Assembly: GCA_014879845.1 (NCBI GenBank)
Contig: JACSRI010000126.1
Span: 62,001 to 126,000 of the forward strand
Source of the DNA: Opitutaceae bacterium
Lineage (GTDB): Bacteria; Verrucomicrobiota; Verrucomicrobiia; Opitutales; Opitutaceae
Direction of reading: 5' to 3'
DNA length: 64,000 nucleotides
The notes under the pieces were generated by a model that saw only the letters and a program-made list of their open reading frames with translations, was not told the DNA's origin and did no database searches. Shown piece after piece: positions 1 to 17,705 of the stretch (positions are counted from its first letter, which is position 1; every line of letters starts with the position of its first letter). A program made the translations under genes and the position numbers.

Positions 1-125
1 GCCAGGGCGAGGGCCGGATCAGCGTGGCGGAGTTTTCGCAGTGGGGCGATACGATCCCCTGGGAAACGCTGACCTCGGTGACCAAGCGCGTGGCCCGCAT
101 CTATCGCACGGGCCTCGGCCTGTAG
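1..125 (+). CDS. C-terminal end of an unidentified protein (truncated by window edge)
   Basis: An open frame enters from the left edge and ends at TAG 123-125. The visible 40 residues end in [14 protein letters not shown]. Codon use is strongly G/C at third positions, like the genes that follow, so this is very probably the real end of a gene lying mostly outside the window. I do not recognise the family from this tail. It is followed at 158 bases by DAHP synthase on the same strand, so the two could share a transcript. Confidence 0.6.
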
Positions 126-283
126 GACGGGGGCGCGCTCCGGGCGAGCCGAGGTCTTCGGTCGATGGTCGCAGCGGAGATCGAAAAACCCGTCCCACGG
201 TCGGCGGCTTGCCGGCGGGGCGCCGAAAATCGCGCTCGTCGGCGGCCCGATCCACCGGGTAGATTGCCGGTTTTTCCTCCTCC

Positions 284-1318
284 ATGATCATCCCGAAAGG
301 CCCTCGCCTCACGCCCGAGCAGTTGCAGGAAGTCACCTCGATCGTCGAGGAGTTCGGCTGCCGCATCCAGACGATCATCGGCACGACACGCAGCGTCTAC
401 GCGATCCTCGGCGACGAGCGCAGCGAGACGATGCGCGGGCGCATCGAGGGCCTGCCCTACATCGACCGCATCGATTCGATCCAGTCGTCCTTCAAGCTCA
501 TGGACGTGCGCTCGGATCTTGCGTCGCATGAGATCCGGATCGGCGGGATCGGGGTCCGGAAGCAACTCCTCGTCATCGCGGGCCAGTGTACGATCGATCC
601 CAAGAATCCGAACATCTTCATCGAGACCGCGCACGCGGTGAAGGAGGCGGGCGCACACGTCCTGCGCGGCGGCGTGTGGAAGCCGCGCACCAATCCGTAT
701 TCATTCCAAGGCGACAATCGCTCCATGGAGATCCTGCTCGAGGCCTCGCGTCAGACGGGCCTGCCGGTCAACACCGAGGTGATGGATGAGCAGCACCTTC
801 AGATCGCGCTGCAGGCCGGCGTGCAGATGATCCAGATCGGCACGCGCAACGCCCTGAACTACTCGCTCCTGCGCCAGATCGGCGCCGCCATCGCGGGTCG
901 TCCGACCATCGTGCTGCTCAAGCGCAGCCGCCACATGGGGCCGATCGACGAGTTCATCTCGGCCGCGGAATACATCGTCAACTTCGGCAATCCCAACGTG
1001 ATGCTCTGCCCGCGCGGCACGATGCCCACGCTCGAGGGATACCGCAGCCATCCCGATGAGTCGATCACCCCGCTGCTCAAGGAGCGCACGTGGGCGCCGG
1101 TCATCGTCGACCCCTCACATTCCGTCGGCAAGGCCACCTACGTCGAGGCCTGCTCGCTCGCCTCGATCGCCTACGGAGCCGACGGCCTCTGCATCGAGGC
1201 TCACGTCAATCCCGCCAAGGGCATCGGCGACGACCCCAAGCAATCCGTCACACCCGAGACGCTCCGCCGCATCATCGAGCGCGCCCACGCGATCTGGGCC
1301 CTGACCCGGTCGCGGTAG
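284..1318 (+). CDS. aroF: 3-deoxy-7-phosphoheptulonate synthase (DAHP synthase, type I-beta)
   Basis: This enzyme condenses phosphoenolpyruvate with erythrose 4-phosphate, the first step of the shikimate pathway, in the cytoplasm. The 344-residue length fits the AroF/AroG type I-beta family, which has an N-terminal ferredoxin-like (ACT-related) domain (about residues 1-70) before a (beta/alpha)8 barrel. The metal-ligand cysteine lies in AGQCTIDP (C102); most relatives have AGPC here. The KPRTNPYSFQG motif (from K133) binds PEP, and a second metal or phosphate motif reads VDPSHSVG near residue 273. The N-terminal domain in this class is the usual site of feedback inhibition, so allosteric control is likely but not visible. 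A small FmdB-like gene follows 69 bases downstream. The symbol refers to the family; aroG or aroA(G) would be equivalent. Confidence 0.93.
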   Translation: MIIPKGPRLTPEQLQEVTSIVEEFGCRIQTIIGTTRSVYAILGDERSETMRGRIEGLPYIDRIDSIQSSFKLMDVRSDLASHEIRIGGIGVRKQLLVIAGQCTIDPKNPNIFIETAHAVKEAGAHVLRGGVWKPRTNPYSFQGDNRSMEILLEASRQTGLPVNTEVMDEQHLQIALQAGVQMIQIGTRNALNYSLLRQIGAAIAGRPTIVLLKRSRHMGPIDEFISAAEYIVNFGNPNVMLCPRGTMPTLEGYRSHPDESITPLLKERTWAPVIVDPSHSVGKATYVEACSLASIAYGADGLCIEAHVNPAKGIGDDPKQSVTPETLRRIIERAHAIWALTRSR

Positions 1319-1387
1319 TGTCCATCCCGCACTTGCCAGACGCCCGCGGGGTTCTTAGCTGGGGAGTTCGAACGACATTCCATCGCG

Positions 1388-1948
1388 ATGCCGATCTACG
1401 AATACTACTGCCCGGACAACAACCGGATCTACCAGTTCTTCGCGAAAACCCTGGCCCAGGGTGAGACCATCCCGAAGTGCCCGGACAACCCGGCCTTCAA
1501 GATGGTGAAGTTGGTCTCGGGCTTTGCCATCGGCGGCGCCACGAAGAAGTCCGGCGGCGATGCGCCCACAGCCGGCCCGGGCGACGACGCCGGCGGAGGC
1601 CCTGCGGGTCCGGGTGCTCCCGGCGGAGATGCCGGGGCGCCTGACGATCCGCGCATGGAGGCGGCGTTTTCCCAGCTCGAGCGCGAGATGGAATCGATCG
1701 ACGAGAACGACCCGCGTGCGATGGGTCGCATGATGCGCCGCATGTCCGAACTGACCGGCGAGAAGCTCGACGGCGAGATGGAGGAGATGGTGCGCAAACT
1801 CGAGGAGGGTGAGGACCCGGAAAAGCTCGAGGAGCAGTTCGGCGACATGATGGGCGAGGGCGGGCCCGACGACGAAATGGGCGGCATGGGTGGCTTCGGC
1901 GGCGGCCGCAGTGCCCCCACGCGCGACCCGCATCTCTACGACTACTGA
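1388..1948 (+). CDS. FmdB-like protein with degenerate zinc ribbon and acidic tail
   Basis: The first 50 residues match the FmdB/YgiT-like putative regulatory domain, which opens MPIYEY and normally holds two CxxC zinc knuckles. Here each knuckle keeps only one cysteine (C8 in YYCPDNN and C31 in PKCPDNP), with asparagine where the partner should be, so a classical ribbon cannot form. After a Gly/Pro/Ala-rich linker (about 55-95), residues 96-165 form a charged, probably helical stretch rich in Glu, Asp and Met. A Gly/Met-rich end follows. The start ATG gives the family's conserved opening. It probably sits on the DAHP synthase transcript. The function is unknown; regulation or protein binding is only a guess from the family name. 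Confidence 0.75.
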   Translation: MPIYEYYCPDNNRIYQFFAKTLAQGETIPKCPDNPAFKMVKLVSGFAIGGATKKSGGDAPTAGPGDDAGGGPAGPGAPGGDAGAPDDPRMEAAFSQLEREMESIDENDPRAMGRMMRRMSELTGEKLDGEMEEMVRKLEEGEDPEKLEEQFGDMMGEGGPDDEMGGMGGFGGGRSAPTRDPHLYDY

Positions 1949-2407
1949 GCGGCCGGCCGGCAACGCGCCGGTTCTGAGGCGTGTTTTCAAACCTCAGTTC
2001 GCCAATGAAGGGCAGTGCTCTGGGTGATCCTGTCCATGGAGGAGGCGGCGGTGTTGAACTGGGCGATGCCGGTTCGGACCTGGCCGGTTGCGGTCGCACG
2101 GTGCGCATGCTTCAGGACGGTTTCGGCATGGATCGTCCGCTCGAGTCGGCGGGCGGGGCTCCTCTCGGTGCGATTCTGACGCGTGAAGTCTCGCCGACGC
2201 GCCGTGGCAGATGCCTCGTCCGGGGATGGACCGCGTGGGGACACGCAGGACTCAGCGCGCCCCGGCGCCGAATGTCCGATGCGCTGGTGTTCGGGCGGTC
2301 GTCGGACGGGAGATCAATGGGTGCCCAGACCTGGCCAGCATCTGCGCAGGGTGGAAACCTTGAGGGTCGCGCCTGCGCTCCGATATATACCGTGGCGTAT
2401 TTCTCCT
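1949..2407. other. Intergenic stretch, no recognisable gene
   Basis: These 459 bases lie between the FmdB-like gene and the kinase-like gene. Open frames cross the stretch on both strands, but their translations are rich in Arg, Gly and Pro and lack the third-position bias of the neighbours. A 6-base dyad (CTGAGG ... CCTCAG) lies near 1975-2000 without a T run. I see no RNA gene or clear promoter. Confidence 0.5.
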
Positions 2408-3406
2408 ATGGTGCCATCCCTCCTCCCTGCCGCGGTCGATGCGGATGCCAGCCCGGATTCCCTTTCGCGACTGGGCGCCGAGACCGAGGTTCTTTCCATC
2501 CCACCGCTCAGCGAATCCGACGAGACGCTGCTCGACGCGCATAGTCTGCTCAATGGCCTCAACGCCCTGGTGGGTGAACTCGGGCTGCTGGCGGGCACCC
2601 TGGGGCGGGACGAGTCGGTGTTTCAAGCCGCGTTCGACGTCTGCGACCGGATGGTGCGCTGCCTGCGGGAACGTGCCGAGTGCGTGGTCGAGGCCGAGCG
2701 TTTCGATGCGTACCGGAACACGATCCTGACGACCATCGAGATCGAGTCGAGGCGCCCCTTGGCGCCCGCGGCGGCGGTCGAGGCTGCGCGGTCGATCGCG
2801 ACCATCCGGCAGGTGCTCGAGGTGCTCAAGTTGCGTTCGGCGGAGTATCTCGCGCATGCACGCGCGCCCGGCCTGTGGGTGCGACTGCCCGCCAGTGTGC
2901 TGCGCGAGCAACTGGCGGAGTTCTTCCGGGTGGTCGAGTCCCGCGCCCGAGGCCGGTACGGCATCGTCTTCGATCAGGCTCTCCAAGGGGCGCGCGACTA
3001 CTTCGTCGACCTGCGTTTCGGCCGCGACGGCGGGACGCTCGCGCTCCCGGACGCGCTTCGAGACGTGGCACGCGACTTGGCGGCCAATGCCCGAAAGTTC
3101 ACGGCTCCCGGTGGAACGATCACCGTGGAGTTCTCCAATCGGGGCGGCGGTGTCACTCTGGTCGTCGCGGATACCGGCCGGGGCATTCCTGCCGGCGACA
3201 TCCCCGGCGTGGTCCATTTCGGCGCGCGCGGGGCGAATGTGTTCGATGTGGCCGCCTTGGGCGGCGGCTTCGGGCTGACCAAGGCCTTCCTTACGACCAA
3301 GCGCTTCGGAGGCCGGTTCTGGATCGCCTCCCGACTCGGGGTCGGCACGTGTGTCCGGATCAAGATACCGGAGAACATGCCGCGGGTGGAATCCGCGAAC
3401 GCGTAA
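2408..3406 (+). CDS. Soluble histidine-kinase-like ATPase (HATPase_c), no sensor domain
   Basis: The C-terminal half (about residues 210-320) is a GHKL ATPase fold. Its N box has N227 in AANARKFT, its G1 box is ADTGRGIP (254-261), and its G2 box is GGGFGLTKAF (285-294). The N-terminal half is helical and carries DAHSLLNGLN with H45, which resembles a dimerisation and phosphotransfer helix of Spo0B/HisKA type. No membrane segment or PAS/GAF domain is seen. The start at 2408 is chosen because upstream in-frame sequence is Arg/Gly-rich and unlike protein. It is therefore a cytoplasmic kinase or phosphotransfer protein. No response regulator adjoins it, so partner and signal are unknown. Confidence 0.75.
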   Translation: MVPSLLPAAVDADASPDSLSRLGAETEVLSIPPLSESDETLLDAHSLLNGLNALVGELGLLAGTLGRDESVFQAAFDVCDRMVRCLRERAECVVEAERFDAYRNTILTTIEIESRRPLAPAAAVEAARSIATIRQVLEVLKLRSAEYLAHARAPGLWVRLPASVLREQLAEFFRVVESRARGRYGIVFDQALQGARDYFVDLRFGRDGGTLALPDALRDVARDLAANARKFTAPGGTITVEFSNRGGGVTLVVADTGRGIPAGDIPGVVHFGARGANVFDVAALGGGFGLTKAFLTTKRFGGRFWIASRLGVGTCVRIKIPENMPRVESANA

Positions 3407-4193
3407 GACCCGGCCGCCGGCAGAAGACCTCGTCGAGCGACTTGCGCGCGTGGATACGCGTGACGGGAAAGCCGCGCCCGTGTCGATGACTGCTCGGGCG
3501 ATCACGATGCTCCGGTGAACGCATGCGTGGAGGATGAAAGCCTTCACGACTTACGCGACCACGGATGCGGCGACGGTGAGGACGCGCGCGGGGCCGGCGA
3601 TCCTGGCGGCGACGTGCGCGGCGAGTCCCGCGCCGTGGCGGCGGCGGTGTCGGCGAAGGGAGCGCCGCGTTCGGCAGATGCGCCGGTGGCGGCGGCAGCG
3701 GCGATCAACGCGCGGTATCCGCCAGGTGCGTCGCGGCCTGTGGTGCACCTGGCGCCGACCGCGGCGGAGACGTCGCCGACTCTGCCGAAATCGTCGACGG
3801 TTTCGCCGAATCGCGCGGAAGCATGACGCAATGCGCTAACCTGCGCGACTTGCGTTGATCGTGGCGGGCGCGGCCACGCCGGCGCGACCTCAGGACTCGG
3901 TTGTCGGGCAGCGCGATGAGCGGCGCATGTCATCCAGCGACAGTTCCGCCGGAGGTGAAGGACGACCATGTGGAGTCCGGAGTGTCGCTCGCTGACTCGC
4001 GTTTCGAGCGGAGTGTGTGGGTGACTCCGGGGGCGAGGTGTGGTGACGATGAGGCCGGGCTACAGCGGCTTCAGAAATGTCGTAGCCGGTTCTGGCATGC
4101 AAAAAGAGAGCAAATTCCTCGAGGGCGGAGATCCGCCCGTCGTCGGGCTCTTTCCCCTTTGCTTTCCGTGGGGCCGGCCATTCGCTTGCCGGG
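3407..4193. other. Long gene-free stretch with possible decayed reading frame
   Basis: These 787 bases separate the kinase-like gene from the inositol-monophosphatase-family gene. Apart from the coding-like remnant described at 3534-3835, I see no credible gene, RNA or repeat. The rest has mixed base use at third positions in all frames. The last 100 bases before 4194 should hold the promoter of the phosphatase gene, but no confident box is visible. Confidence 0.5.
3534..3835 (-). pseudogene. Possible remnant of a coding frame, broken by one frameshift
   Basis: Third positions are almost all C (read on the minus strand), but the favoured phase changes near 3640. Reading the minus strand from about 3835, one frame gives a sensible alanine-rich peptide that includes FGETVDDFGRVGDVSAAVGA. 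Restoring one base in the GCC-repeat run near 3640 continues it as TGAGLAAHVAARIAGPARVL, ending at TAA 3551-3553. The plus strand also gives a fair peptide beginning MKAFTTYATTDAATV at 3534, so strand is uncertain. I do not recognise a family. It may be a decayed gene, or chance structure in GC-rich DNA. Confidence 0.25.
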
Positions 4194-5027
4194 ATGAGTC
4201 AGCTCAGTCCCGGTCCGAGTATTTCCGACGCGATCGCGCGGCGCATGTCCGCCGGCCTCATGACCGTGCGCGCCCGCACGGCCTACATGCACCAGCATTT
4301 CGGCAAGGCCGAATCGATGTGGAAGCACGATGGCACGCGTGTGACAGCCGTTGATCTGGCGATCTCGAAGACGGTGTTCGAGGAGCTGCGGAAGAAGTTT
4401 CCCGAGGACCAGTACTTCAGCGAGGAAACTGAGCCGGGCGGGGCGCCGATTCCGCTGACGTCGGAGTTTGCCTGGATCATCGATCCGGTGGATGGGACCA
4501 ACAACTACGCTCTCGGTGTGCCGATGTGCGCGATCTCGCTGGCGCTGCTCCAGCGCGGCGTGCCGGTGTGCGGTTTCATCTACGATCTCGGCACGCGTTC
4601 GCTCCTGCACGGCGGCCCGGGCATCGGCCTGTTCGCCGATGGCGCACCGATCGCCCGCCATCCCGCGCCGACCGGGGACACGAAGATCGTGGCCATGCAC
4701 AGCCCGATCGATGCGCGCCACATGCCGGTGGTGAACGCCGTGCTCGAGACCTACAAGCTGCGCGCCTACGGCAGCGGCGCCCTGCACCTCGCGTATGTCG
4801 CGCTCGGCCGCATCGACGCGTGTCTGGACTTCACCGTGCGCGTCTGGGATATCGCGGCGGCCGCGGCGTTCTGTGCGGTGACCGATGTGGAGACGTGGTT
4901 CTTCCAGGGCGACGTCTTCCCGCTGCGGGCCTTCGACCTGCACATGAAACCGATCCGCTACTTGGCGGCCCCGGCGGAGGCGATGGCGGAGCTGCGCGGG
5001 ACGCTCGCGGGCAGGCTGGTGGATTGA
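4194..5027 (+). CDS. Inositol monophosphatase family protein (HisN/SuhB-like)
   Basis: This is a Mg2+-dependent phosphatase of the IMPase/FIG superfamily. The metal-binding residues are visible: E77-E78 in FSEETE, the core IDPVDGTNNY (D97, D100, T102), and a C-terminal VWDIAAAAAF motif supplying the third aspartate. The length (277 residues) is normal. Members dephosphorylate inositol-1-phosphate, histidinol phosphate, 3',5'-bisphosphoadenosine or fructose-1,6-bisphosphate, and the motifs alone do not choose between them. No histidine or inositol gene is nearby. It converges on the TonB-domain gene with 33 bases between stops. Confidence 0.88.
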   Translation: MSQLSPGPSISDAIARRMSAGLMTVRARTAYMHQHFGKAESMWKHDGTRVTAVDLAISKTVFEELRKKFPEDQYFSEETEPGGAPIPLTSEFAWIIDPVDGTNNYALGVPMCAISLALLQRGVPVCGFIYDLGTRSLLHGGPGIGLFADGAPIARHPAPTGDTKIVAMHSPIDARHMPVVNAVLETYKLRAYGSGALHLAYVALGRIDACLDFTVRVWDIAAAAAFCAVTDVETWFFQGDVFPLRAFDLHMKPIRYLAAPAEAMAELRGTLAGRLVD

Positions 5028-5060
5028 CCCGCCCGCCGCGCCCCTGCGAAACGGCGCCGA

Positions 5061-5396
5061 CTAGACGCTGACGCGGAGAGGAATCGAGACCTTCGCTTTC
5101 ACGGGCACGCCGTTCTGCGTGGACGGCTTGAACTTCCACTTCCTCACGGCCTGCTTGATCGGTTCCTCGATTCCGGCGTGCGAGACCTTGGTGATGTCGA
5201 CGTCGGTGACCTTGCCCTTTTCGTCGATGTGAATCGTGATGACCGCGAGGGCCTCGACTCCCTTGAACTCGAGCGGAAGCTCGGGCGGCGGCGTGAGCAG
5301 CGCCTCGGGTTTGGTCTGGGCGCCGTCATCGGCTGGCGCAAGGCTGGCGAGTCCCAGGATAGTCGTGGCGAGTAGGATGATGCGAATGTGCCTCAT
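5061..5396 (-). CDS. Small exported TonB C-terminal domain protein
   Basis: The 111-residue protein begins with a signal peptide (basic MRHIR, then a hydrophobic core to about residue 21, with cleavage near LAPA-DD). The rest is a TonB C-terminal domain: PPPELPLEFKG opens it, and it contains IHIDEKGKVTDVDI and AVRKWKFKPSTQNG. The transmembrane anchor and Pro-rich spacer of true TonB are missing. It is therefore probably a free periplasmic TonB_C domain rather than an energy transducer for a receptor. No ExbB/ExbD or TonB-dependent receptor is nearby. The role is unknown. Confidence 0.82.
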   Translation of the reverse strand: MRHIRIILLATTILGLASLAPADDGAQTKPEALLTPPPELPLEFKGVEALAVITIHIDEKGKVTDVDITKVSHAGIEEPIKQAVRKWKFKPSTQNGVPVKAKVSIPLRVSV

Positions 5397-5744
5397 GGCG
5401 CACCCACTATCGGACGCGGGACGGCGGACCTTGCGCCTGTGTCGCCGAATTCACACTACAAGACGCGGCCAGAAAGCCCTGTCATTCCGGCGGAACCGAT
5501 GACTCGTGCGCGTGGATGGTGCGGGACCTATTCACAGCGTCCATGGACGGCGGTTTGTCGTGAACAGCACTCATGGCTGCATCGCAAACCGCGGCAGCCG
5601 CAGCGCCTCGCATGAATGTTCCGCATGGAAGGGAATCCCGCCGCGCGGCCGGATCGGTCGATAAGATCAACGAAGCAGGGCATGCGCGCGGCTTCATTCG
5701 TCCGGTCGTGGGCGATCCTGCACCCACGCCAGCCGGCGGGTGCT
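5397..5744. other. Intergenic stretch upstream of the TonB-domain gene
   Basis: These 348 bases hold the 3' side of the creatininase gene and the 5' side of the TonB-domain gene, both on the minus strand. I find no protein-like frame independent of the neighbours, no clear hairpin with a T run, and no repeat shared with other parts of the window. Confidence 0.45.
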
Positions 5745-6536
5745 TCAGGCGCGGACTTTCTCCGCGAGCTTCAGGATCTGGTCGGCCAGGGCGCGACCGC
5801 CGGCGGCCAGCCACGAGCGACCGTCGGCGACCGTCGCGGCCGTGGCGTCGCCGATCACGCCCGTGCGCGAGAGGTCGGTCGTCTGCCATCCGTAGATGGA
5901 CGGGGCATCGATCGGCCCCACGCTTTCCGTCGCCGCGGATCGCGGTGGAAATTCGCAGACCGCGTGCTCCATCGACACGAGGTCCGGCGCGACGGCGAGC
6001 ATGAGCGCCGTCTCGAACTGGCCGGCGTGGATGCCCTGGGCCGCCTCGTGCGGTGGAAGGGGCGCCTTCCAGCCGAAGGAGAGCATGCCGGCGTTGATGC
6101 CGACCGCGGCCTGGATCTCGCGCAGCGTCGACACGAGCACCGGGCTGTTGCCGCCGTGGGTGTTCAGCACGGCGAGGGTGCGGAAGCCGAGGGCGGCGAG
6201 CTGGCGTGCGGTGGCCCTGAGCAGGCGGTGCAGGGTGCGCGCCGAGAGCGTGATCGTGCCGGGGAAGTTGCCGTGCTCGTTGCTCTTGCCGTAGGTGATC
6301 GGCGGGCCCACGTAGATCGGTGCGGCGGGCGGAAGGTGCTGCAGCGCCGAGGCGAGCCAGGCTTGACCGAGGATCGAGTCAACACCGACGGGCAGGTGAG
6401 GGCCGTGCTGCTCGATCGACCCGGTGGGGATGATGACGATGGCGGAGCCCTTTCCCGGCAGCCCCTCGATCTGCGCGCGCGTCATCGCCGGCAGGTAGCG
6501 CGTGCGAAATGCCTGGGGATGGCGTGCCGGTGTCAC
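5745..6536 (-). CDS. Creatininase/creatinine amidohydrolase family protein
   Basis: The 263-residue protein carries all hallmark motifs of the metal-dependent creatininase superfamily: GSIEQHGPHLPVGVD (E42, H44, D53), HGNFPGT (from H88), NTHGGN (H127) and HAGQFETA (H170, E175). The family includes creatinine amidohydrolase, formamidopyrimidine deformylases and MftE-type peptidases, so the exact substrate cannot be read from motifs. The start is GTG, overlapping the stop of the upstream gene as GTGA, so the two are translationally coupled. The upstream partner is a homologue without the metal ligands. A peptide importer operon lies just upstream, but the link is only positional. Confidence 0.88.
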   Translation of the reverse strand: MTPARHPQAFRTRYLPAMTRAQIEGLPGKGSAIVIIPTGSIEQHGPHLPVGVDSILGQAWLASALQHLPPAAPIYVGPPITYGKSNEHGNFPGTITLSARTLHRLLRATARQLAALGFRTLAVLNTHGGNSPVLVSTLREIQAAVGINAGMLSFGWKAPLPPHEAAQGIHAGQFETALMLAVAPDLVSMEHAVCEFPPRSAATESVGPIDAPSIYGWQTTDLSRTGVIGDATAATVADGRSWLAAGGRALADQILKLAEKVRA

Positions 6537-7381
6537 GACGAGGGCCTCCTCGTCGTGCGGCTCTCCTTCGTGCGCCGGGTCCGCTTGGCGCTGGGCCCGG
6601 TGGATGTGCGCGCGCGGGTCGCGGGCTCTCGTGGAGCGAGGCCGGGCAGGCCGTCGATCTCGGCGAGAAGGCGGGCGAGGCGGGCGCCCGCGTTAGCGAG
6701 GGTGGTCCAGCCTTCGGTAACCGCAGCGTCCAGGGACTTGGTCCAGGTCAGCGGCGGTGGCTGGCGGTGGTCGCCGGGACGAAAGTCGATCAACCGGCTG
6801 TCACCGCGCGGCACATCGTCCGAGGGCGCACGGCGGGTCAACGCGCAGGCCGCCGCCTGCACGGCGGCGCGGACCGACGAGCGCGTCGGGTGAAGGTCCA
6901 GCCCGAGTGCGGCCAGGTGCACGACGTAGGTCCGCAGGCCGAGGTCGACGCGAAGGTCGCACGCGCACAGCTTGGCCAGCTCCTCGTTCCACGGGCTGGT
7001 GTTGAAGAGCACGAGGCGCGACGAGCCGGAGGCGAGGACCGATGCGGCGATCTCGCGGACGAGGTCGAGCGCGGTTTCGAAATCGATGCCGAAGAACGTG
7101 TGAGGATACGGCCCGAGGACAAAACGCAACGGCGGCAGGACGAGGGTGGACGCCGCGCGGTCCGGGTCGGAGGCGAACATCGCGCGCAGCACGCCGCAGC
7201 CGAGCGTCTCCTCCAGGTCGAGTGATCGCCCCAGTCCCCAGTCGGCAAACCCGAAGATGGGCAGCACCACGAGCGGCCGCCTTGCTTTCGGGAGCGTGGC
7301 GAAGTGTGTCCATGGCCGGCTCGACCAAAGGACGGAGTCGGGCAGGTCGGCGAGGAGCGAGGTGGGCGACGCGGTGCTCAT
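6533..7381 (-). CDS. Creatininase-like protein lacking the metal ligands (probable pseudoenzyme)
   Basis: Order and spacing of secondary structure follow the creatininase fold of its downstream neighbour, but each catalytic motif is altered. FGFADWGLGRSLDLEE stands where GSIEQHGPHLPVGVD is expected. PYPHTFFGI replaces HGNFPGT, NTSPWN replaces NTHGGN, and no HAGxxET segment is seen. The C-terminal helix region (AVTEGWTTLANAGARLARLL) aligns well with that of the active-looking partner. The last 30 residues are a basic Arg/Thr/Ser tail. The ATG at 7381 is preferred to one three codons earlier. It overlaps the next gene by 4 bases, suggesting a hetero-oligomer with a catalytic and a non-catalytic subunit. 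Confidence 0.72.
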   Translation of the reverse strand: MSTASPTSLLADLPDSVLWSSRPWTHFATLPKARRPLVVLPIFGFADWGLGRSLDLEETLGCGVLRAMFASDPDRAASTLVLPPLRFVLGPYPHTFFGIDFETALDLVREIAASVLASGSSRLVLFNTSPWNEELAKLCACDLRVDLGLRTYVVHLAALGLDLHPTRSSVRAAVQAAACALTRRAPSDDVPRGDSRLIDFRPGDHRQPPPLTWTKSLDAAVTEGWTTLANAGARLARLLAEIDGLPGLAPREPATRARTSTGPSAKRTRRTKESRTTRRPSS

Positions 7382-7450
7382 GCGGGGCAAGCGGTCCGAG
7401 TTGAACCGCAGTGGGCACCGAGGGCACGGAGAAACGATGAGGACTGTGAA

Positions 7451-7537
7451 CCGAGGACAGTGGACGGAGGACGGCTGAACGGGGCCCTATGGAAACATTG
7501 CGTTCTCAGCCGGTGCCCGCCGTCCTCTGTCCACCGG
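7451..7537. repeat. Imperfect inverted repeat of intergenic type
   Basis: Between the ABC importer operon and the creatininase pair, the block containing GGACAGTGGACGGAGGAC (left) recurs inverted and imperfect on the right as GTCCTCTGTCC. The right arm runs close to the stop codon of the ATPase gene. The shape resembles the other dispersed palindromes in this window. Confidence 0.4.
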
Positions 7538-7548
7538 TCCCGGCTCGG

Positions 7549-8532
7549 CTATAGGTCGAAATGGCAGGCCACCTCGTGGCCCGGGCCGGCCGGCCGGAGC
7601 TGGGGGACCTCGACGCGGCAGCGGTCCTGCACATGCGGGCAGCGCGTGTGGAAGGGGCAGCCCGACGGCGGGTTGATCGGCGAGGGCACGTCGCCGGTGA
7701 GAACGATGCGCTCGCGTTCGCGACGGGGATTGGGCTCGGGGATGGCCGAGATGAGCGCGCGCGTATACGGATGTCGGGCGTTCCGATACAACTCGTCGGC
7801 GCCGGCCAGTTCGACGATGCGGCCGAGATACATCACGGCGATGCGGTCGCTGATGTGTTTCACGACCGCGAGATTGTGCGCGATGAAGACGTAGGTCAGC
7901 CCGAGGTCGCGCTGCAGGTCGAGCAGGAGGTTGAGCACCTGGGACTGGATCGAGACGTCGAGCGCCGAGACCGGCTCGTCGCATATGATCAGCTTCGGGT
8001 TGAGGGCGAGTGCGCGCGCGATGCCGATGCGTTGACGCTGTCCGCCGGAAAACTCGAAGGGGAAGCGGTCGTAGGACGCCGCGGGCAGGCCGACCTTGTC
8101 GAGCAGCGCGAGCGCCTTCTTCTTGCGCTCCTCGCGGTCGCCTTGACGATGGATGACAAACGGCTCCTCGAGGATCTGCCCGACGGAGTGGCGCGCGTTG
8201 AGCGACTCCACCGGGTCCTGGAAAATCATCTGGATGTGGCGCCGGTGGGGCTTGAGCTGGCGGCAGCCCATGGGGGCGAGATTGAATCCCTCGAAGTGGA
8301 TCGCTCCCTCGGTCGGCTCGAGGAGGCGCACCACGCACTTGCCCAGCGTGGATTTGCCGCAGCCGGACTCGCCCACGAGCCCAACGGTCTCGCCGTGATG
8401 CACGGTCAGGTCGACACCGTCGACCGCGCGACAAAGCTTCGGACGCTTGAAGAGCATGCCCTGGCGAATCGGGAAGTGCATCTTCAGGCCGCGGATCTGG
8501 AGCAGCGGCGGCGTGGAGTCGGGCGGTGTCAT
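7549..8532 (-). CDS. oppF: Peptide ABC transporter ATP-binding protein (OppF/DppF type)
   Basis: This is one of two ATPases energising uptake of oligopeptides across the inner membrane. Walker A is GESGCGKST (54-62), the signature is [14 protein letters not shown], and Walker B is [12 protein letters not shown]. The C-terminal oligopeptide/dipeptide extension ends with [14 protein letters not shown], the cysteine-rich segment typical of OppF/DppF. The length of 327 is standard. It overlaps the preceding ATPase gene by 4 bases (ATGA) and is the last gene of the five-gene importer operon. The symbol is by family; dppF or the second half of yejF would be equally fair. Confidence 0.9.
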
Positions 8533-9551
8533 GATGTGGCGGAGACGGCGGCTCCCGCGACGACCTCGCGCCAGCGGTGACAGGCCACGGCGTGGCCAGG
8601 GGCTACCTGTTCGATGGCCGGCTGGTCCTTGCGGCAGCGGTCCACCGCGAAGGGGCAGCGGTTCTGGAAACGGCAGCCGGGCGGCATGTCCTTCAGGGCG
8701 GGCACCATGCCGTCGATGATCCGGAGGCGCGACTTGCGCTGGCCGCCGAGCCGTGGGATCGAGTCGAGCAGACCGCGCGTGTAGGGGTGGGATGGATTCT
8801 CAAAGATCGCCTCCACCGGGCCGGACTCGGCGATGCGACCGCCATACATCACCACCACGTCGTCGCACATCTCCGCGATCACGCCGAGGTCGTGCGTGAT
8901 CAGCATGATCGACATGCCCAGCTCGGCCTGCAGCTGTTGCATGAGATCGAGGATTTGGGCTTGGATTGTGACGTCGAGGGCGGTGGTCGGCTCATCGGCG
9001 ATGACGAGCTGGGGGCGGCAGGCGAGCGCCATGGCGATGACCACGCGCTGGCGCATGCCTCCCGAGAGCTGGTGCGGGTACTCGCCGACGCGCACCTCGG
9101 GCGAGGGGATGCCCACGTGCTTGAGCATCTCGATGGCGAGGCGCAGGGCCTCGGCGCGGTCCCTCGTCTTGTGCAGCAGGAAAACCTCCGCGAGCTGGCG
9201 CCCGATCGTGTGGACGGGATTGAGCGCGGTCATCGGCTCCTGGAAGATCATGCCGATCTTGCCTCCACGCACCTGATACATCTGCTCCGGCGTCGCCTGG
9301 GCGAGGTCGCGACCGTCGAAGAGGATCTCGCCGCCGAGGATCCGGCCCATCGGCTGCGGGAGCAGTCGCATGATCGACAGCGCCGTGACGCTCTTCCCGC
9401 AGCCGGACTCGCCGACGATGCCGAGCGTGCGGCCGCGGTGGCACTGGAAGCTCACGCCGTCCACGGCGATCACCTGGCCGGCGTCGGTGTCGAAGGCGGT
9501 GACGAGATTGCGAACCTCGAGGATCGGTGCGTCAGCCACGGGCGGGAACAC
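8529..9551 (-). CDS. oppD: Peptide ABC transporter ATP-binding protein (OppD/DppD type)
   Basis: This is the partner ATPase of the importer. Walker A GESGCGKS (47-54), signature [15 protein letters not shown] and Walker [13 protein letters not shown] are intact, and the C-terminal oligopeptide domain contains [14 protein letters not shown]. The likely start is GTG, 33 bases after the stop of the binding-protein gene; a second in-frame GTG lies four codons later. In YejABEF systems the two ATPases are fused into one YejF; here they are separate, as in Opp and Dpp. Confidence 0.9.
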
Positions 9552-9584
9552 GTCGGAAGTGAAGCAGGGCGGGCGGGAGAGGCA

Positions 9585-11642
9585 TCACGGCTCCTTGTAC
9601 TGGTCGAACACGTGGATGCCCGGCGGGAACGTCTGGCCCTTGTTCTTGGCCGAGCGGGTTTCCTTTTCCATGTCCTCGTCGATCCAGTGGACGAAAAACT
9701 CGTCGGCATAGCGGGCGAGCATCGGGTTCATGCCCTCGGGCCAGCGCACCCAGCGCCAGTAGGCGCAGCGGAAATACGGCTGGGCCCAGCCGGGCACCCA
9801 GGCAGCCTCCTCATAGAGAATCTCTTCCATCTTCACCGCCAGCGCCTTCATCTCGTCGAGCGAGGCGGAGCGGTCGTAATGCTCGATGAGGCGGTCGAAC
9901 TCGGGGATGAATGTCGATGTGTAGTTGTTGGTGTTCGGCCGCACGCGCGTCGGCTTGGGGTTGGGTGTGCCGTCGGAGAACTTTTCGACGAACTTTCCGT
10001 CGGGTCCGATGTAGGCGTCCTCGTAGGCGTTGGATCCGTGTCCGTCCTCCCAGTAGCGGGGAAACAGCTCGGGCGACCGCGAGAAGGCGAGCAGGCCGAT
10101 CTCGTGCTGCTTTTGCTGGAACTTCTTCCAGCCCGTGCTCTGGTCGAGCACCTCGATGTTGAACTCGAGGCCGGCCTTGATCGCCTCGGTCTTCAGGATC
10201 GTCATGATGTCGCGGATGTCCGGCCGGTAGGTCGTTATGGTGAAGGAGAGGCGCTCGCCCTGGTCGTTGGTGAGCACGCCGTCCGGACCCTGCTTGGTGA
10301 ATCCGGCCTTGGCGAAATACTCGCGCGCCTTCACCGGGTCGAACTTGCGCGCCATCATCGTCGGGTGCACGCGCCAAGAGTAGCCGTCGTTGCGCGTGTT
10401 CATCTGCATGGCGTCGCCGCGGTAGAACTGGCTGGCGACCATGTCGAAGTTGGATGCGTACTGGATGCCCCAGCGGACGTCCTTGTTGTCGAGCAGGTGC
10501 TTGGCCGTGTTGATGTAGAGGCCCCAGTCCGGGCGGGGGATGCGGTTGTAGAAGGTCGCCTTGTGCACGTAGCCATCGGCGACGAGCGGGTGGTTGTTTG
10601 GCAGCGTGTCGTACCAGTACTTCGGGACCGCGGTCATCTGCTGGAAGATGTCGATGTCGCCGCGCATGAAGGCCTCGAGCGCCTTGTCGTGGTCGCGGAT
10701 GATGCGGAAGCGATACCGGTCAGGGTTGTAGCGGCCGCGATAATACTTCAGGTCGCGGGCCCACCAGTCCTTCACGCGGGTGAGCGTCACGGACTGGCCC
10801 TTGTCGATGTCCTCCTCGCGCACGGTGTAGGCGCCCGTGGTCGGGAGGACGCGCCATTGGTATTTCTCGACGAAGTCGGGGCCGAGGTCGGCCATGGCGT
10901 GCTTCGGGTAGAAGGTCATGCCGGCTACGCGCGTGTCGAAGTCGGGCCGGAGCTCGGCGAGCGTGAGCGCGAAGGTGTATTTGTCGAAGACGGTCACCTT
11001 CTCCCAGGTCTTCGAGTAGAAGTCGGTATACCAGTTCAGTTTGTGGAAGCCGGAGCGGTGAAAGTAGAACGAGAAGATCACGTCGTCCGTCGTGACCGGG
11101 GCGCCGTCGGACCAGCGGGCGCGTTCGTCGAGGCGGAAATACATGGTGCGTTCCTCGCGCACCGGGGCCCATTCCTTGGCGAGGCCCGGGACGGCCTGGC
11201 CGGGGTAGTTCGGATGCTCGAGCACCAGGCCCATCACGATATAGTCGAGCAGGTACTGGCGCATGCCACCCGAGGAGTCGGGACCGATCGTGCGCATCGT
11301 GCGAGGGAAGTCCTGGAGGTAGAAATTGAGGGTGCCGCCCTTCTTCGCGTTGGGATCGGCGAATTCGGGAAGGTCGGGGCCGGACGTCCAGGCGAGATTG
11401 GTCGGAATATCGGCGGCCGTCTTGATGACGTAGAAATTCGACTCGTGTTTGAGCGTGGCGGCCAGGTCGGCTTCGAGGCCTGGATACGCGGACTTGGCTG
11501 TGTCGCCCGCAGTCGCGGAGGCTTCGGCCGTTCCGCTGGTCGAGGCTCCCGCGGCCGGCGGCGGTGTCTCCTTCTTGCCGCAGCCGGCGAGGGCGAAGGC
11601 GGTGCTGAGGGCGGCGAGGAGCGCGATCTTGGTGGTCTTCAT
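9585..11642 (-). CDS. Large lipoprotein solute-binding protein, family 5 (YejA-like)
   Basis: This 685-residue extracytoplasmic binding protein captures peptides for the ABC importer. The ATG at 11642 gives a lipoprotein signal: hydrophobic LLAALSTAFALAGC with the lipobox cysteine followed by GKKE. An Ala/Ser/Thr-rich spacer (about residues 25-50) then separates the anchor from the folded part. The SBP_bac_5 domain covers most of the rest. GGTLNFYLQDFPRTM near residue 105 and the long size are characteristic of YejA rather than OppA/DppA. YejA relatives carry peptides and the peptide-nucleotide antibiotic microcin C in enterobacteria. That specificity is only a possibility here. It lies between the permease and ATPase genes. 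Confidence 0.88.
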   Translation of the reverse strand: MKTTKIALLAALSTAFALAGCGKKETPPPAAGASTSGTAEASATAGDTAKSAYPGLEADLAATLKHESNFYVIKTAADIPTNLAWTSGPDLPEFADPNAKKGGTLNFYLQDFPRTMRTIGPDSSGGMRQYLLDYIVMGLVLEHPNYPGQAVPGLAKEWAPVREERTMYFRLDERARWSDGAPVTTDDVIFSFYFHRSGFHKLNWYTDFYSKTWEKVTVFDKYTFALTLAELRPDFDTRVAGMTFYPKHAMADLGPDFVEKYQWRVLPTTGAYTVREEDIDKGQSVTLTRVKDWWARDLKYYRGRYNPDRYRFRIIRDHDKALEAFMRGDIDIFQQMTAVPKYWYDTLPNNHPLVADGYVHKATFYNRIPRPDWGLYINTAKHLLDNKDVRWGIQYASNFDMVASQFYRGDAMQMNTRNDGYSWRVHPTMMARKFDPVKAREYFAKAGFTKQGPDGVLTNDQGERLSFTITTYRPDIRDIMTILKTEAIKAGLEFNIEVLDQSTGWKKFQQKQHEIGLLAFSRSPELFPRYWEDGHGSNAYEDAYIGPDGKFVEKFSDGTPNPKPTRVRPNTNNYTSTFIPEFDRLIEHYDRSASLDEMKALAVKMEEILYEEAAWVPGWAQPYFRCAYWRWVRWPEGMNPMLARYADEFFVHWIDEDMEKETRSAKNKGQTFPPGIHVFDQYKEP

Positions 11643-11700
11643 GGTCGGAAGGGATGGATGACGGCCCGGCACGCAAGCGCCGGCGCCTGTCGTTGGTTGG

Positions 11701-12762
11701 TCAGCGATAGATGGTGAACTTCTTCGGGTCGAAGGCCTCGCGCACGGCTTCACCGATGAAGGTGACGAGCACGAGCACGAGCATGAGGGCGCCGAACGCG
11801 GAGGCGACGATCCACGGGGCGCTGAGGTTGGACGTCCCCTGGCGGAGCAGTTCGCCCCAGCTCGGCGTGGGCGGCGGCAGGCCGTAGCCGAGGAAATCGA
11901 GGGCGGTGAGCGCGGAGATCGCCGCGGCCACGGAGAACGGCGCGAACGTCACGAGCGTGGAGATGACGTTGGGCAGGACGTGCGAGAAGATGATGCGCGT
12001 GTTGCCTGCACCGATCACCTCGGCGGCGTGGACATAGTCGCGGGCCTTCTCCTTGTAGGTCACCGAGCGCATGTACCAGGTGATACTGGTCCATGAGAAC
12101 AACACCACGACGCCGAGCAACCAGCCGAGATTCATGCCGCCGAGGCCCGAGACGATCGACGCGACGATGATCACGACGAAAAAGAACGGCACCTGCGACC
12201 AGATCTCGATCAATCGTTGTCCGAAGAGGTCGAGCCGGCCGCCGAAGTAACCCATCGAGCAGCCGAGGCTCACGCCGATCAAATACGTGAGCACGATGTA
12301 GCAGCCGGCGAAGATGAGGGCGTTGCGAAAGCCATACACCACGCGGGCGAGCACGTCGCGGTTGAGCTGGTCGGTCCCGAGGAAGTGGCGCTCGGCGAAG
12401 CTCGGGGCGCGGGGCCGGAAGAACTCGCCGGGATAGCAGTTCTCGATCGGATCGTACGGGACGGGCGGCATGAGGACCCAGCCGCGTTCCGGCTCCTTCT
12501 CGAGCCGGGCCTGCAGCTCGCGGAAGTTCGTCGCGTAGTCGTAGTCGAGCCCGAAAGTGCGGCCGGGGATGATCGCGCCGTAGGTCGGGAAATACCACTT
12601 CCCCTCGAACCGCACGATGAGCGCGCGGCTGTTGACCAGCACTTCGGCGATGAGCGAGAGGCCGATCAACACCGCGAGGATCGTGAACGAGACGAACCCG
12701 CGCCGGATCTGCCGGAAGCGCCGGAGTTTTTTCGCCGTGATCGGGTTGAGGGAGAACTTCAC
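11701..12762 (-). CDS. Peptide ABC transporter permease (YejE/OppC type)
   Basis: This inner-membrane permease has an N-terminal membrane segment (about 27-45), then a periplasmic loop of roughly 100 residues. The BPD_transp_1 domain (about 145-345) follows, with the coupling-helix region DYVHAAEVIGAGNTRIIFSHVLPN. The long loop containing HFLGTDQLNRDVLARVVYG is typical of OppC/YejE proteins. Length 353 matches YejE. It starts 12 bases after the stop of the YejB-type permease gene and is followed at 58 bases by the binding protein. Confidence 0.9.
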   Translation of the reverse strand: MKFSLNPITAKKLRRFRQIRRGFVSFTILAVLIGLSLIAEVLVNSRALIVRFEGKWYFPTYGAIIPGRTFGLDYDYATNFRELQARLEKEPERGWVLMPPVPYDPIENCYPGEFFRPRAPSFAERHFLGTDQLNRDVLARVVYGFRNALIFAGCYIVLTYLIGVSLGCSMGYFGGRLDLFGQRLIEIWSQVPFFFVVIIVASIVSGLGGMNLGWLLGVVVLFSWTSITWYMRSVTYKEKARDYVHAAEVIGAGNTRIIFSHVLPNVISTLVTFAPFSVAAAISALTALDFLGYGLPPPTPSWGELLRQGTSNLSAPWIVASAFGALMLVLVLVTFIGEAVREAFDPKKFTIYR

Positions 12763-12774
12763 GGGAGGATCATC

Positions 12775-13785
12775 TCATTTGAATCGCACGCGCGGGTCGA
12801 TGAGCGCGATAAGCATGTCGGAAATGACGTTGCCGGTGAGCAGCACCAGCGAGGACACCACGAGCACGCCCATGACCGAGGGATAGTCGCGGTCGAAGAT
12901 CGACTGCACGCCGAGCAGGCCCATGCCGTTGATGTCGAAGATGAACTCGATGAGGTAGGATCCGCCGACGAAAACTGTGAGGCTCGCGCCGAGATGCGTG
13001 GCGAGCGGGATGAGCGAGTTGCGCAGCGCGTGCCTGAGCACCGCGGTCTTGAACGACACGCCCTTGGCCACGGCGGTGCGGACGAAATCCGCCGCCAGGT
13101 TGTCCATGAGCTGGTTCTTCATCAGCATGGTCAGAAACGCGAAGCTCGTGATCGCGTAGCAGACGAGCGGGAGCACGGCGTGATGCGCGAGATCGACGAC
13201 CTTGCCCCAGATGGACAGGTCGGAGAAGTTCTCGCCCACGAAGCCGCTCATCGGGAACCATTCCGCTCGCGCGGCGAGAAACACGATGAGGATCGCGCCG
13301 AGCGCGTATCCGGGCACGGCGTACCCGAAGAAGATCAGCGCGGAGGTGGCGTTGTCGAAGCCGGTGCGGTGCCGGATGGCCTTGGCGATGCCGAGCGGGA
13401 TGCAGACGCCGTAGGTCAACGCGAGCGTGATGCCGCCATACACAAGCGAGACGGGCAGGCGCTGCGTGATGAGGTCGCGCACCGGTTCGTTGAAGCGGTG
13501 CGAGGTGCCGAGGTCGCAGCGGACGACCTTGCCGAGCCACTGCACGTAGGCGACGGGGATGGGCTTATCGAGGCCGTAGTAGGCCTTGAGGTCGGCGAGT
13601 TGCTCCTCGGAAGTCGAGCTGCGGCCCATATCGCCGCCCCGGCGCGTCTCCGACGTCCGGGCCTCCATGATCGCCCGCTCAAGGGGCCCTCCCGGCACGA
13701 AACGAGTGATGGCGAAAACCAGCAGCGTGACACCGATGAACGTGGGAGGGATGAGGAGGAGGCGTCGAAGGAAGTAGTCGCGCAT
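12775..13785 (-). CDS. Peptide ABC transporter permease (YejB/OppB type)
   Basis: The second permease of the importer has 336 residues. It begins MRDYFLRRLLLIPPTFIGVT, the standard OppB/YejB amphipathic opening followed by the first membrane helix. It contains a cytoplasm-facing motif KGVSFKTAVLRHALRNSLIP and ends IALIDPRVRFK. An insert of about 20 residues after RFVPGGPLE (ARTSETRRGGDMGRSSTSEE) is characteristic of YejB. The ATG at 13785 is chosen because the earlier in-frame sequence is basic and not conserved-looking. It is the first gene of the operon, so the promoter should lie in 13786-13962. Confidence 0.9.
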   Translation of the reverse strand: MRDYFLRRLLLIPPTFIGVTLLVFAITRFVPGGPLERAIMEARTSETRRGGDMGRSSTSEEQLADLKAYYGLDKPIPVAYVQWLGKVVRCDLGTSHRFNEPVRDLITQRLPVSLVYGGITLALTYGVCIPLGIAKAIRHRTGFDNATSALIFFGYAVPGYALGAILIVFLAARAEWFPMSGFVGENFSDLSIWGKVVDLAHHAVLPLVCYAITSFAFLTMLMKNQLMDNLAADFVRTAVAKGVSFKTAVLRHALRNSLIPLATHLGASLTVFVGGSYLIEFIFDINGMGLLGVQSIFDRDYPSVMGVLVVSSLVLLTGNVISDMLIALIDPRVRFK

Positions 13786-13962
13786 CAGGCTGGTCGGACC
13801 GATAAGGAAAGAGCGGGGGAAAGCAAGAAGGGCACCAACGTGCGCCCAGGCGCGTGATCGGCAACGCTTTTTGCCTCGGGATTTTCCGGAGGCCGAGACG
13901 TGGCGCACCCCGGCGGGCCAGTCGTACGTTTGAACCGCGCGCTGCAGCGCGGCACGGACGTG

Positions 13963-14982
13963 TCAACGCTCGCTGCTCGAGGCCACGCGCGCCGCCGCGG
14001 CCGCACGACGGGAGTCGCGCCAGTCTTTGTAGACGCGGCTGATGCTCCCTAGCCAACGCACGCGGACTCGGAACTCGACGTCATACTCGTCGAGGTAGTG
14101 CTTGCCCTCGACCGCGAGGCCGAGCTGCCAACGGCCCGGGCTGTTGAACACGTACTTTGACGGGATCTCGTAGATCACCGAGGGCGTCACGGTGAAGTAG
14201 TTGGCGGCCTCGCCGTCGACCGTGTGCTCCCAGCCTGCGGCCAGGCCGTAGGTGAAACGACCGCGATGGTGGAGCACGCCGGGCGCGATGCGAAAATAAT
14301 CGTCCTGCGGCCGATCCTCGGGAATCCAACCGTCGGCCGAGGAGGGCGTCAGGAAGTCATACGAGAGATTGAGGATGCCCTCGTTTTGCTTGTTCTGCCC
14401 GACCTTGCGCGAGAATGCCGTGAGCAGCTTGGTGCGGTTGACGCCGTGGTTGAGCTGGGCGGGTGACGACGGGTCGGGCCAGACGAACTGTACGTTGGTC
14501 GCGGCGTTGATCTGGCTGCCCTGCGTGGGCTTCCACTTGCGTTTGAAGGAGAGACGGTAGTTGGCGATACCCACGCCATTCGACTCCTCGGGCTTTTCCG
14601 TCGGATTGCCAAAATATCCGTCGATCTCGAACTCGCCCTCGGTTCGGCGATTGAAGCCGTAGGTCACGCCCATCGGGACGCGCACGTATTCGTCGTCGAT
14701 CAGGTCGAACACGCGGGGCTGCACGGAGAGTTTCCACGTGCCGCGCTCCTGCGTGTCGGGCAGGACGACATCGAAGATGCCGCGCACCTGGGCGTCGCTC
14801 CACTGCCAGATGGTCGAAAGGCTGCGCGTGATCGCGCCGGGACGCTCGGGCTGCACCTGTTCCTCCGGCAGCGTCGAGGTCGGCTCCGGCTCTTCCGTCG
14901 GCACGGACGGCACCTCCTGGGCGATCGCGAAGGAGACCGCGAAGGCGAGGACGGCGGGGAGCGTGCAAAAGCGGGCCGGCAT
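13963..14982 (-). CDS. Exported beta-barrel-like protein of unknown function
   Basis: The ATG at 14982 opens a signal peptide (MPARFC, then LPAVLAFAVSFAIA, cleavage before QE). The following acidic Pro/Thr/Glu linker (EEPEPTSTLPEEQVQPE) leads to about 270 residues of alternating hydrophobic/polar strands with many aromatic residues. Examples are VPMGVTYGFNRRTEGEFEID, HHRGRFTYGLAAGWEH and YDVEFRVRVRWLG. This pattern suggests an outer-membrane barrel or a related surface protein. The tail after YKDWRDSRR is Ala-rich and may be extracytoplasmic. I do not recognise a named family. It stands alone, followed by the importer operon on the same strand at 177 bases. Confidence 0.7.
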   Translation of the reverse strand: MPARFCTLPAVLAFAVSFAIAQEVPSVPTEEPEPTSTLPEEQVQPERPGAITRSLSTIWQWSDAQVRGIFDVVLPDTQERGTWKLSVQPRVFDLIDDEYVRVPMGVTYGFNRRTEGEFEIDGYFGNPTEKPEESNGVGIANYRLSFKRKWKPTQGSQINAATNVQFVWPDPSSPAQLNHGVNRTKLLTAFSRKVGQNKQNEGILNLSYDFLTPSSADGWIPEDRPQDDYFRIAPGVLHHRGRFTYGLAAGWEHTVDGEAANYFTVTPSVIYEIPSKYVFNSPGRWQLGLAVEGKHYLDEYDVEFRVRVRWLGSISRVYKDWRDSRRAAAAARVASSSER

Positions 14983-15384
14983 GGACGAACGTGAGCGTCG
15001 AGCGCTCAGGGCAACGGCTCCTCCGGGCGGATGCGAGGGCTTTTTTCGGACCAGCGGGACATGGTCGGGCAGCGACCGTCTCGACCGCGTGCACCCCGCC
15101 GAGGTTCCGCACGAAAACCGCGGCGCGGGTAGTCCAGACCTGGCGTACATCGGGCTTGGAAATGGGTCATGGCGCGGTTCACGTCTTCCATCGTCCGGGA
15201 TGTGTGCACGTCGATCTAAAAAACCGGTAAGAGAAACTTCGATGCACCACGGAACGGTTGCGATCTGCGCCGGGTCCGTGCAGTGTATTCGACGATGGCC
15301 AGGCCGGTTCCGCCCCCCGGTGATGGAAACGGCCACGGTGCATGGTTGGCGTCCGACGATCCCGGCGCCCCGGCCCGTGGCGCC
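14983..15384. other. Intergenic divergent region
   Basis: About 400 bases separate the divergent barrel-like gene and the small secreted protein gene. Frames crossing it are shadow-like. A run of six T follows GAGGGC near 15040, but no convincing stem precedes it. Promoters for both genes should lie here, though none can be called with confidence. Confidence 0.4.
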
Positions 15385-15855
15385 ATGCGCGTATGGGCGG
15401 TTGCCGCCGCGGTCATGATGATGTTTGGGGCGGCCGTTTCGGCCGATGCGGCTGACCAGACGGCGACCATTCCGGGCGGCGCCCGCCTGCGCGCCCTGTC
15501 CGACGACGAAGTCCAGGCGCTCTGGGAAAACCGTCCGGTCCGCAGCGCGGCGCATCGCAGCTACATCTACATCGACGAGGACGACATCGTCGAAGGCAAC
15601 GAACTGCCGCTCTTCCGCATCGAGTCGTCGCGCTACGGGGCGTTGCGTCAACTTGAACGCATGGCCGACGGCGACCCGGGTACTGCCGCCCGCATCGCCG
15701 ATCTTGCCCCGGAACTGGCGCGCGAGACGGAGATGAGCCGCCGCGCCGACGCGGCCTTTTACTCCCGCCGGTCGGCCGCAGCCCGGCGCGACACGCCGGA
15801 CCATCCCGACGTCGTGGCCGGTCCGCTCATGAGTCTGTTCGGCCGCGGTCGGTGA
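15385..15855 (+). CDS. Small secreted protein of unknown function
   Basis: The chosen ATG gives MRVWAVAAAVMMMFGAAVSA, a clean signal peptide with cleavage after SADA. A longer GTG-initiated version from 15283 would bury that signal, so it is less likely. The mature part is about 130 residues, acidic and helical, with YIYIDEDDIVEGNELPLFRI in the middle and an Arg/Ala-rich end. No motif or family is recognised. Third-position GC bias supports coding. It converges on the ABC-2 exporter operon with only 22 bases between stops. Confidence 0.65.
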   Translation: MRVWAVAAAVMMMFGAAVSADAADQTATIPGGARLRALSDDEVQALWENRPVRSAAHRSYIYIDEDDIVEGNELPLFRIESSRYGALRQLERMADGDPGTAARIADLAPELARETEMSRRADAAFYSRRSAAARRDTPDHPDVVAGPLMSLFGRGR

Positions 15856-15877
15856 GACCAGCCGAGCGCGCGGCGCG

Positions 15878-16674
15878 CTATTTCTCCGCCGTGCCCGCGC
15901 CGGTGAATTCGCGCAGCGAGAAGATCGCGATCGCCCCGCCGAGCGCGAGCGCGACGAACAGCATGATCGCGCCGCCGGCCGCAGTGATGCTCTCGGGGGC
16001 ATGCAACCCGCGGGCACCAGGCACGATGGGCTGCAGCATGGCGAGGAGGTGGTGGGTCATCGAGAGTTTGCTCACCTGGGTCGGGATCTGCCCGACGCCG
16101 ATCTCGACCATCAGGCCATACGCGATCGCCAGCGCGAAGTAGCGTGTGGTGATCGCGCCGAACAGAAAACCCAGGGCCGAGAAGCCCGCGACCGCGAGGC
16201 CCTGCGCGAGCAGAAGGTGCGGCAGCATCGCGCCCAGTCGGTCCACGCCGTGCAACACGCCCGCGGCATAGACGGCGGCGAACGGCACGAGGCTGCTCGC
16301 CTGCAGGCAGAGCATCTGGCTGAGGTAACGCAGGACCACGAAGACCGGGCGCCGCACCGGCCGGGTCAGGACGTAGTCGACCGACACCGACGCCATATCG
16401 TCGCGGATCGCGCCGGCGGCTGAGAGCAGCGCGACCGCGGGGAGCAGGAACGTGAGATAGAACTCCGTCGTCCAGCGGAAGAAGTAGGAGGTCTGGCCAT
16501 GGCGCACGTTCTCCGAGGTGAGCAGGAACAGCAGCGCCGACAGGCCCGCAAGCACGAGCAGGCGACGGATCCGGAAAAAGTCCGGGTAGGTCAGCCGCCA
16601 CACGCCGCCGAAAGCGCGGGTCAAGCCCGGGTCGATGGCGCCCGGGGCGGCGGGCAGGGAGGTGGCGGAATCGT

Positions 16675-16678: not shown

Positions 16679-17604
<926 letters not shown>

Positions 17605-17705
17605 GTCAGAGGTCGGAGGGCGGAGGACGGAAGTCAGGGCTCAAGGTCCGAAGGAATGGAAACGGAACGCGCGTGGCCGATCGCCGGCCCCGTCCCGCTG
17701 GTCTT

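Follow-up and report, generated by a model that had tools for sequence, protein, structure and literature searches.

A creatininase-family amidohydrolase and a ligand-less paralogue with the same predicted fold form a recurrent gene pair in Opitutales

The window, i.e. the whole 64,000-nucleotide stretch of Opitutaceae DNA that was analysed, carries on its minus strand two adjacent genes for creatininase-like proteins, located downstream of the genes of a peptide-type ABC transporter. The upstream gene of the two is here called psd and the downstream one cat. The following genes and features were annotated in this region:

5745..6536, minus strand: cat, creatininase-family amidohydrolase with full metal site, 263 aa, GTG start
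6533..6536, minus strand: GTGA start/stop overlap, psd stop with cat start
6533..7381, minus strand: psd, ligand-less creatininase-fold protein, 282 aa, ATG at 7381
7448..7546, strand unassigned: long inverted repeat between transporter and psd, predicted strong hairpin
7549..8532, minus strand: ATPase of a peptide-type ABC transporter, adjacent to psd on its upstream side (named by our reading and by 40% identity to the second ATPase)
8529..9551, minus strand: peptide-type ABC transporter ATPase, OppD-like (NF007010, 374.6 bits, below the cut-off of 575)
9585..11753, minus strand: peptide-type ABC substrate-binding protein, about 722 aa, start uncertain (best model NF045467 Opp4A, 62.1 bits, below the cut-off of 650)
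11701..12762, minus strand: ABC permease closest to the microcin C (Yej) permease (NF011596, 277 bits, below the cut-off of 439)
12775..13908, minus strand: second transporter gene, a permease by position and by our reading

The overlap of the two genes by GTGA, as claimed in the first-pass annotation, was borne out. A possible overlap of this type (-4) was detected in 16 of 34 unfused rows, 2 of the 16 being duplicates. The order of ATPase and psd is the same in loci L023 and L026 as in the window.

For the assignment of the proteins to families, sequence and structure comparisons were used. The cat protein matched the Pfam family Creatininase (PF02633) with an E-value of 8.4e-63 and 212.4 bits, above the gathering cut-off of 31.3, and the closest solved structure by sequence was creatininase 1q3k (E 1.5e-17). 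It remained below the equivalog cut-off of all four NCBIfam models matched, including the best one, MftE (TIGR03964, 124.5 bits; cut-off 172), and creatininase sensu stricto (TIGR04448, 92.4 bits; cut-off 235). The psd of the window reached an E-value of 5.8e-05 and 23.1 bits with PF02633, below the gathering cut-off of 31.3, while the other psd of the same genome scored 45 bits. BLASTP of psd against cat gave no significant match (best E 0.18), and none of the solved structures matched psd by sequence better than E 0.37. An AlphaFold2 model of psd calculated with 29 rows (pLDDT 85.5, pTM 0.82) was submitted to Foldseek, and all 26 chains found at E <= 0.001 are creatininases. The model was superimposed on creatininases with Z-scores of 16.1–16.7 over 208–227 residues (rmsd 3.8–4.5), as compared to a Z-score of 8.3 for the next fold, and the last helix is retained in model residues 217–244. 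As far as a predicted structure can tell, the creatininase fold of psd is thereby confirmed and an unrelated fold ruled out; it had been proposed beforehand that both genes encode the same fold and that psd keeps the C-terminal helix, and the model agrees on both points.

Residue counts were obtained from an alignment of 162 domains; domains shorter than 140 aa (2 of 164) were left out, and two alignments placing psd rows on the cat half were dropped. The five metal ligands named in the first-pass annotation (E42, H44, D53, H127, and E175) are all present in the cat of the window. Among 68 cats, E42, H44, D53, and H127 are found in every sequence and E175 in 67, with one gap, and all 25 solo creatininases carry the complete set. 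At the same positions the psd of the window carries A, W, E, S, and A, respectively, the E175 column being less surely aligned. In the 69 psd, the E42 position is occupied by Ala in 51 and by Glu in none, the H44 position by Trp in 38 and by His in 21, the D53 position by Glu in 66 and by Asp in one, and the H127 position by Ser in 59 and by His in one. Glu is also absent from the E175 position (0/69), which is hydrophobic or a gap in 68/69, including nine gaps. The statement that psd has lost every ligand thus holds for residue identity, but not for the carboxylate at the D53 position, which is kept as Glu. Other residues are near-invariant in psd, namely E58 (68/69), W19 (67/68), R144 (67/69), R86 (66/69), and E57 (66/69); the residues of the window cat aligned to E58, W19, R144, and R86 are S54, L15, Q142, and T81. 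The most conserved psd residues also include many Pro, Gly, and Trp.

The co-occurrence of both genes was analyzed in several sets of genomes. Among 57 genomes of relatives, including that of the window, 16 contained psd (22 rows). A scan of all genomes with two short psd motifs, which could miss diverged psd elsewhere, delivered 31 loci with titles referring to Opitutales, Opitutaceae, Opitutae, Opitutus, Ereboglobus, Verrucomicrobia/Verrucomicrobiota, and in one case Akkermansia. Of the 53 psd loci (47 distinct, as five contigs and one gene were counted twice), 51 have cat directly downstream, and in the remaining two the contig stops 102 and 5 bases past the psd match. L086 retains no more than the end of psd at the edge of its contig, and L016, with a psd fragment below 60 bits, is outside this census. 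Starting from the other gene, 28 of 177 Opitutales genomes contained cat (36 rows), and 26 of the 30 cat loci examined in the order have psd directly upstream. Of the six remaining rows, three correspond to pairs already recorded elsewhere (the second pairs in G020, G000, and G193), and the others are distant cat (G067, G131, and G040 with 40, 39, and 31% identity). The four cat loci without psd (L102–L105) are distant as well, with 30–41% identity; since psd is missing in L102 but present in L099, both with 41% identity, identity alone is no marker of the boundary.

In the phylum, a search gave a match in 25 of 387 genomes. All 24 rows above 75 bits are pairs, whereas those with 63 bits or less, among the rows examined as loci, score better as ordinary creatininases. 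The class-wide search (33 of 286 genomes) added, among the rows examined as loci, solo creatininases. Two genomes with the pair (L123 and L124) belong to a different class of the phylum, and the nesting of their rows inside the Opitutales rows suggests transfer. Altogether, the pair is patchy, even inside the family, but where psd occurs it is steadily paired with its intact paralogue, and the expected conservation in other genomes was found. Chance neighbourhood is ruled out by the two pairing counts and the recurrence across the order; gene adjacency as such could be kept by co-expression alone. A MAG contig titled Akkermansia muciniphila (L072) carries an Opitutaceae-type pair grouping with an Opitutaceae row and is probably a mislabelled or mixed contig.

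A single reading frame spans psd and cat in 17 of 51 rows, which represent 15 distinct genes. Three of these fusions come from genomes assembled into at most two contigs (G004, G005, and G020), and all three fusions submitted to Pfam showed two stretches recognized as creatininase. L047, whose cat half lies in two frames, was counted as fused in this census and scored as split on the cat tree. For one fusion of 522 aa (L050), the model reached a pLDDT of 82.3 and a pTM of 0.86, and its cat half gave Z-scores of 18.1–19.5 with creatininases. This pTM exceeds our expectation for independently placed halves, and we read it as a sign of some confidence in their relative position, while homodimers remembered from training could partly account for the value.

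Some fusions show further peculiarities. In L015 and L016, which branch off close to the base of the cat tree, the psd half is shortened (455 and 336 aa for the shortest choice of open frame), and the constraint on psd is therefore unequal across loci. In Ereboglobus sp. PH5-10 (L062, 7995–10109; same gene as L008), an IS200-like transposase domain (Y1_Tnp), which we read as the REP-associated type, is inserted in frame between the halves, giving an open frame of 705 aa with both creatininase halves recognizable. In the alignment, L013 (G005) shows about 50 extra residues of repeat-like sequence inside the psd half.

In a phylogenetic tree with both proteins, psd forms one clade (27 rows, support 100/100) and cat another (27 rows, 100/99), and the seven fused psd form one clade in the same tree. 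As regards psd as a sister duplicate of cat, the free tree did not hold the two together and placed psd on a long stem, but their joint grouping was not rejected (p-AU 0.22). On the cat tree (71 rows), the distribution of 19 fused and 47 split rows needs two changes, one of which is the frameshifted L047; with four solo creatininases as the root, the fused genes enclose the split ones, although the root is uncertain. The dN/dS ratios in 11 close pairs of sequences range from 0.05 to 0.23 for psd and from 0.03 to 0.28 for cat, with about 0.44 for both in a twelfth, distant pair. This shows that psd is under purifying selection, and it is kept across several Opitutales families.

The genomic surroundings were surveyed in 45 neighbourhoods, some of them short. 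A cytosine-deaminase-like gene is located up to 2.5 kb upstream on the same strand in 11 of them (one scanned: NF005759, 467.7 bits; cut-off 403), a DUF2165 gene up to 1 kb upstream in 14, and a RidA-type gene directly upstream in 11, the one scanned scoring below cut-off with TIGR00004 (73.6 bits; 106.25) and RutC (55.7 bits; 169.1). Also, an FAD oxidase gene was found in 16, a gene for an NMT1/THI5-type binding protein in 11, and a formamidase-type gene in 4 neighbourhoods (NF045496, 120.8 bits, below 500). All six types occur in one cluster in L074. A Yej/Opp-type peptide importer lies directly upstream in 3 of the 45 (window, L023, and L026), and 8 of the 13 fused loci among the 45 adjoin a ParA-like or glgB-like gene, which give no hint at a pathway. 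None of the N-heterocycle-type neighbours of other loci was detected at the window pair (window 1–18000), so that the substrate may differ among paralogues; for the second pair of this genome (L019/L038), the neighbours include an amidohydrolase gene and a formamidase-type gene. In much of the family, the neighbours suggest a cyclic or linear amide from N-heterocycle catabolism as the substrate.

Taking together the shared predicted fold, the metal ligands lost in psd but kept in cat, the co-occurrence, the natural fusions, and the purifying selection on psd, the best reading is that psd and cat are two subunits, or two domains in the fused homologues, of one obligate hetero-oligomeric creatininase-type amidohydrolase. 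We assign this reading a probability of roughly 0.7; the first-pass annotation had regarded a mixed catalytic/non-catalytic assembly as plausible. According to this proposal, cat would hydrolyse an amide or lactam with its two-metal site, and psd, having lost the metal site and kept the scaffold, would replace a catalytic subunit in the same particle, most simply with one psd per cat. Within such a complex, psd may stabilise or tune cat, and its near-invariant residues W19, E57, E58, R86, and R144, which differ from the residues of cat there, may contribute. In much of the family, the pair would take part in degrading N-heterocycles or products derived from their breakdown; for the window pair, the substrate is perhaps a peptide-like compound that may enter through the adjacent Yej-type importer.

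Other explanations for psd were considered against the same data. It could be a second enzyme with changed chemistry and a rebuilt site (E57, E58, R86, often D47, and sometimes His at the H44 position), working in the same pathway as cat, either as a separate protein or, in the fusions, as one part of a bifunctional enzyme. Its own near-invariant polar residues (E58, R144, R86, and E57) and the His still present at the H44 position in 21 psd would fit, and fusions also join enzymes of one pathway. The residues do not, however, include a conserved metal-binding set, as seen from the Ser at the H127 position and the hydrophobic residue or gap at the E175 position, and the Pro, Gly, and Trp among the most conserved residues are scaffold-like; we consider a second enzyme unlikely. 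Rather less probable still is a role as a mere assembly chaperone or co-translational folding partner of cat, absent from the mature enzyme. The upstream position of psd and the possible start/stop overlap in about half of the unfused rows are in line with such a role, but the fusions would hold psd on the mature enzyme unless they are cleaved.

The fusions, together with the apparent confidence with which the L050 model positions its halves relative to each other, likewise speak against co-expressed proteins that work apart, for example with psd binding or sensing the operon's substrate as a soluble protein. The occurrence of importers in the clusters would suit this, and we nevertheless judge it very improbable. 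Decay of psd as a functionless duplicate of cat would explain the lost ligands and the shortened psd halves of L015 and L016. This explanation was rejected, as it is largely refuted by dN/dS values similar to those of cat in the 11 close pairs, and the retention of psd across families of the order makes it hardly credible.

The proposed hetero-oligomer can be compared to known systems. Creatininase (creatinine amidohydrolase; PDB 1j2t, 1q3k, 3a6d–3a6l) has the fold of cat, which is also predicted for psd, and shares the five ligand positions with cat; the cat half of the L050 model matches it with Z-scores of 19.0–19.5 at 27–30% identity. Characterised creatininases are homo-oligomers (homohexamers) and have one kind of subunit, whereas here a ligand-less partner or fusion is present in addition. 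Enzyme/pseudoenzyme pairs of paralogues are known from TsaD-TsaB and from trypanosome AdoMetDC with its prozyme. In these cases, too, a catalytic protein is in complex with a non-catalytic homologue, as we propose here, but the folds differ. The pairing is thus known as a kind, while to our knowledge no such pair has been described for the creatininase family. Among the papers listed in searches of the open-licence PMC literature, judged by title and start of the abstract, none dealt with a hetero-oligomeric or pseudoenzyme creatininase or with a ligand-less partner or fusion of creatininase, in agreement with the first-pass annotation, which knew of no named system of this type. Another creatininase homologue is the mycofactocin peptidase MftE, the top NCBIfam model for cat, although cat stays below its equivalog cut-off (see above). 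In an excerpt of one review, MftE is described as cleaving a leader peptide (PMC10885120), which indicates, to the extent of that excerpt, that the creatininase fold can cut peptides.

If correct, the proposal would describe the first mixed catalytic/non-catalytic creatininase known to us, and the natural occurrence of the same pair in both a fused and a split version offers a clean system for asking why an enzyme comes to need a dead paralogue. The linked clusters, with cytosine-deaminase-like, RidA-type, FAD oxidase, and formamidase-type genes and the THI5-type importer, suggest that Opitutales have an N-heterocycle pathway, with ring opening or amide cleavage as possible steps for an enzyme of the creatininase fold. 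A more far-reaching version, which we put forward tentatively and hold to be possible but doubtful, is that the dead site of psd became an allosteric or substrate-sensing pocket (W19, E57, E58, R86, and R144) switching the active site of its partner, which would make the pair a regulated hetero-oligomeric amidohydrolase, and that the system, having arisen a single time in Opitutales, switched about once between the split and the fused state and was re-used with different importers for different N-compounds.

The whole L074 locus and L058 (4082–8774) represent a putative N-heterocycle catabolic cluster in Opitutales, composed of a THI5-type ABC importer, FAD oxidase, TonB receptor, cytosine-deaminase-like, DUF2165, RidA-type, psd, cat, amidohydrolase, and formamidase-type genes; we know of no pathway assigned to it. 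In the window, the 167-nt intergenic stretch with the inverted repeat between transporter and psd has a predicted folding energy of −75.9 kcal/mol (z −3.3), and the 18-base core pattern of the repeat, searched with up to one mismatch, occurs a single time in the genome sequence examined.
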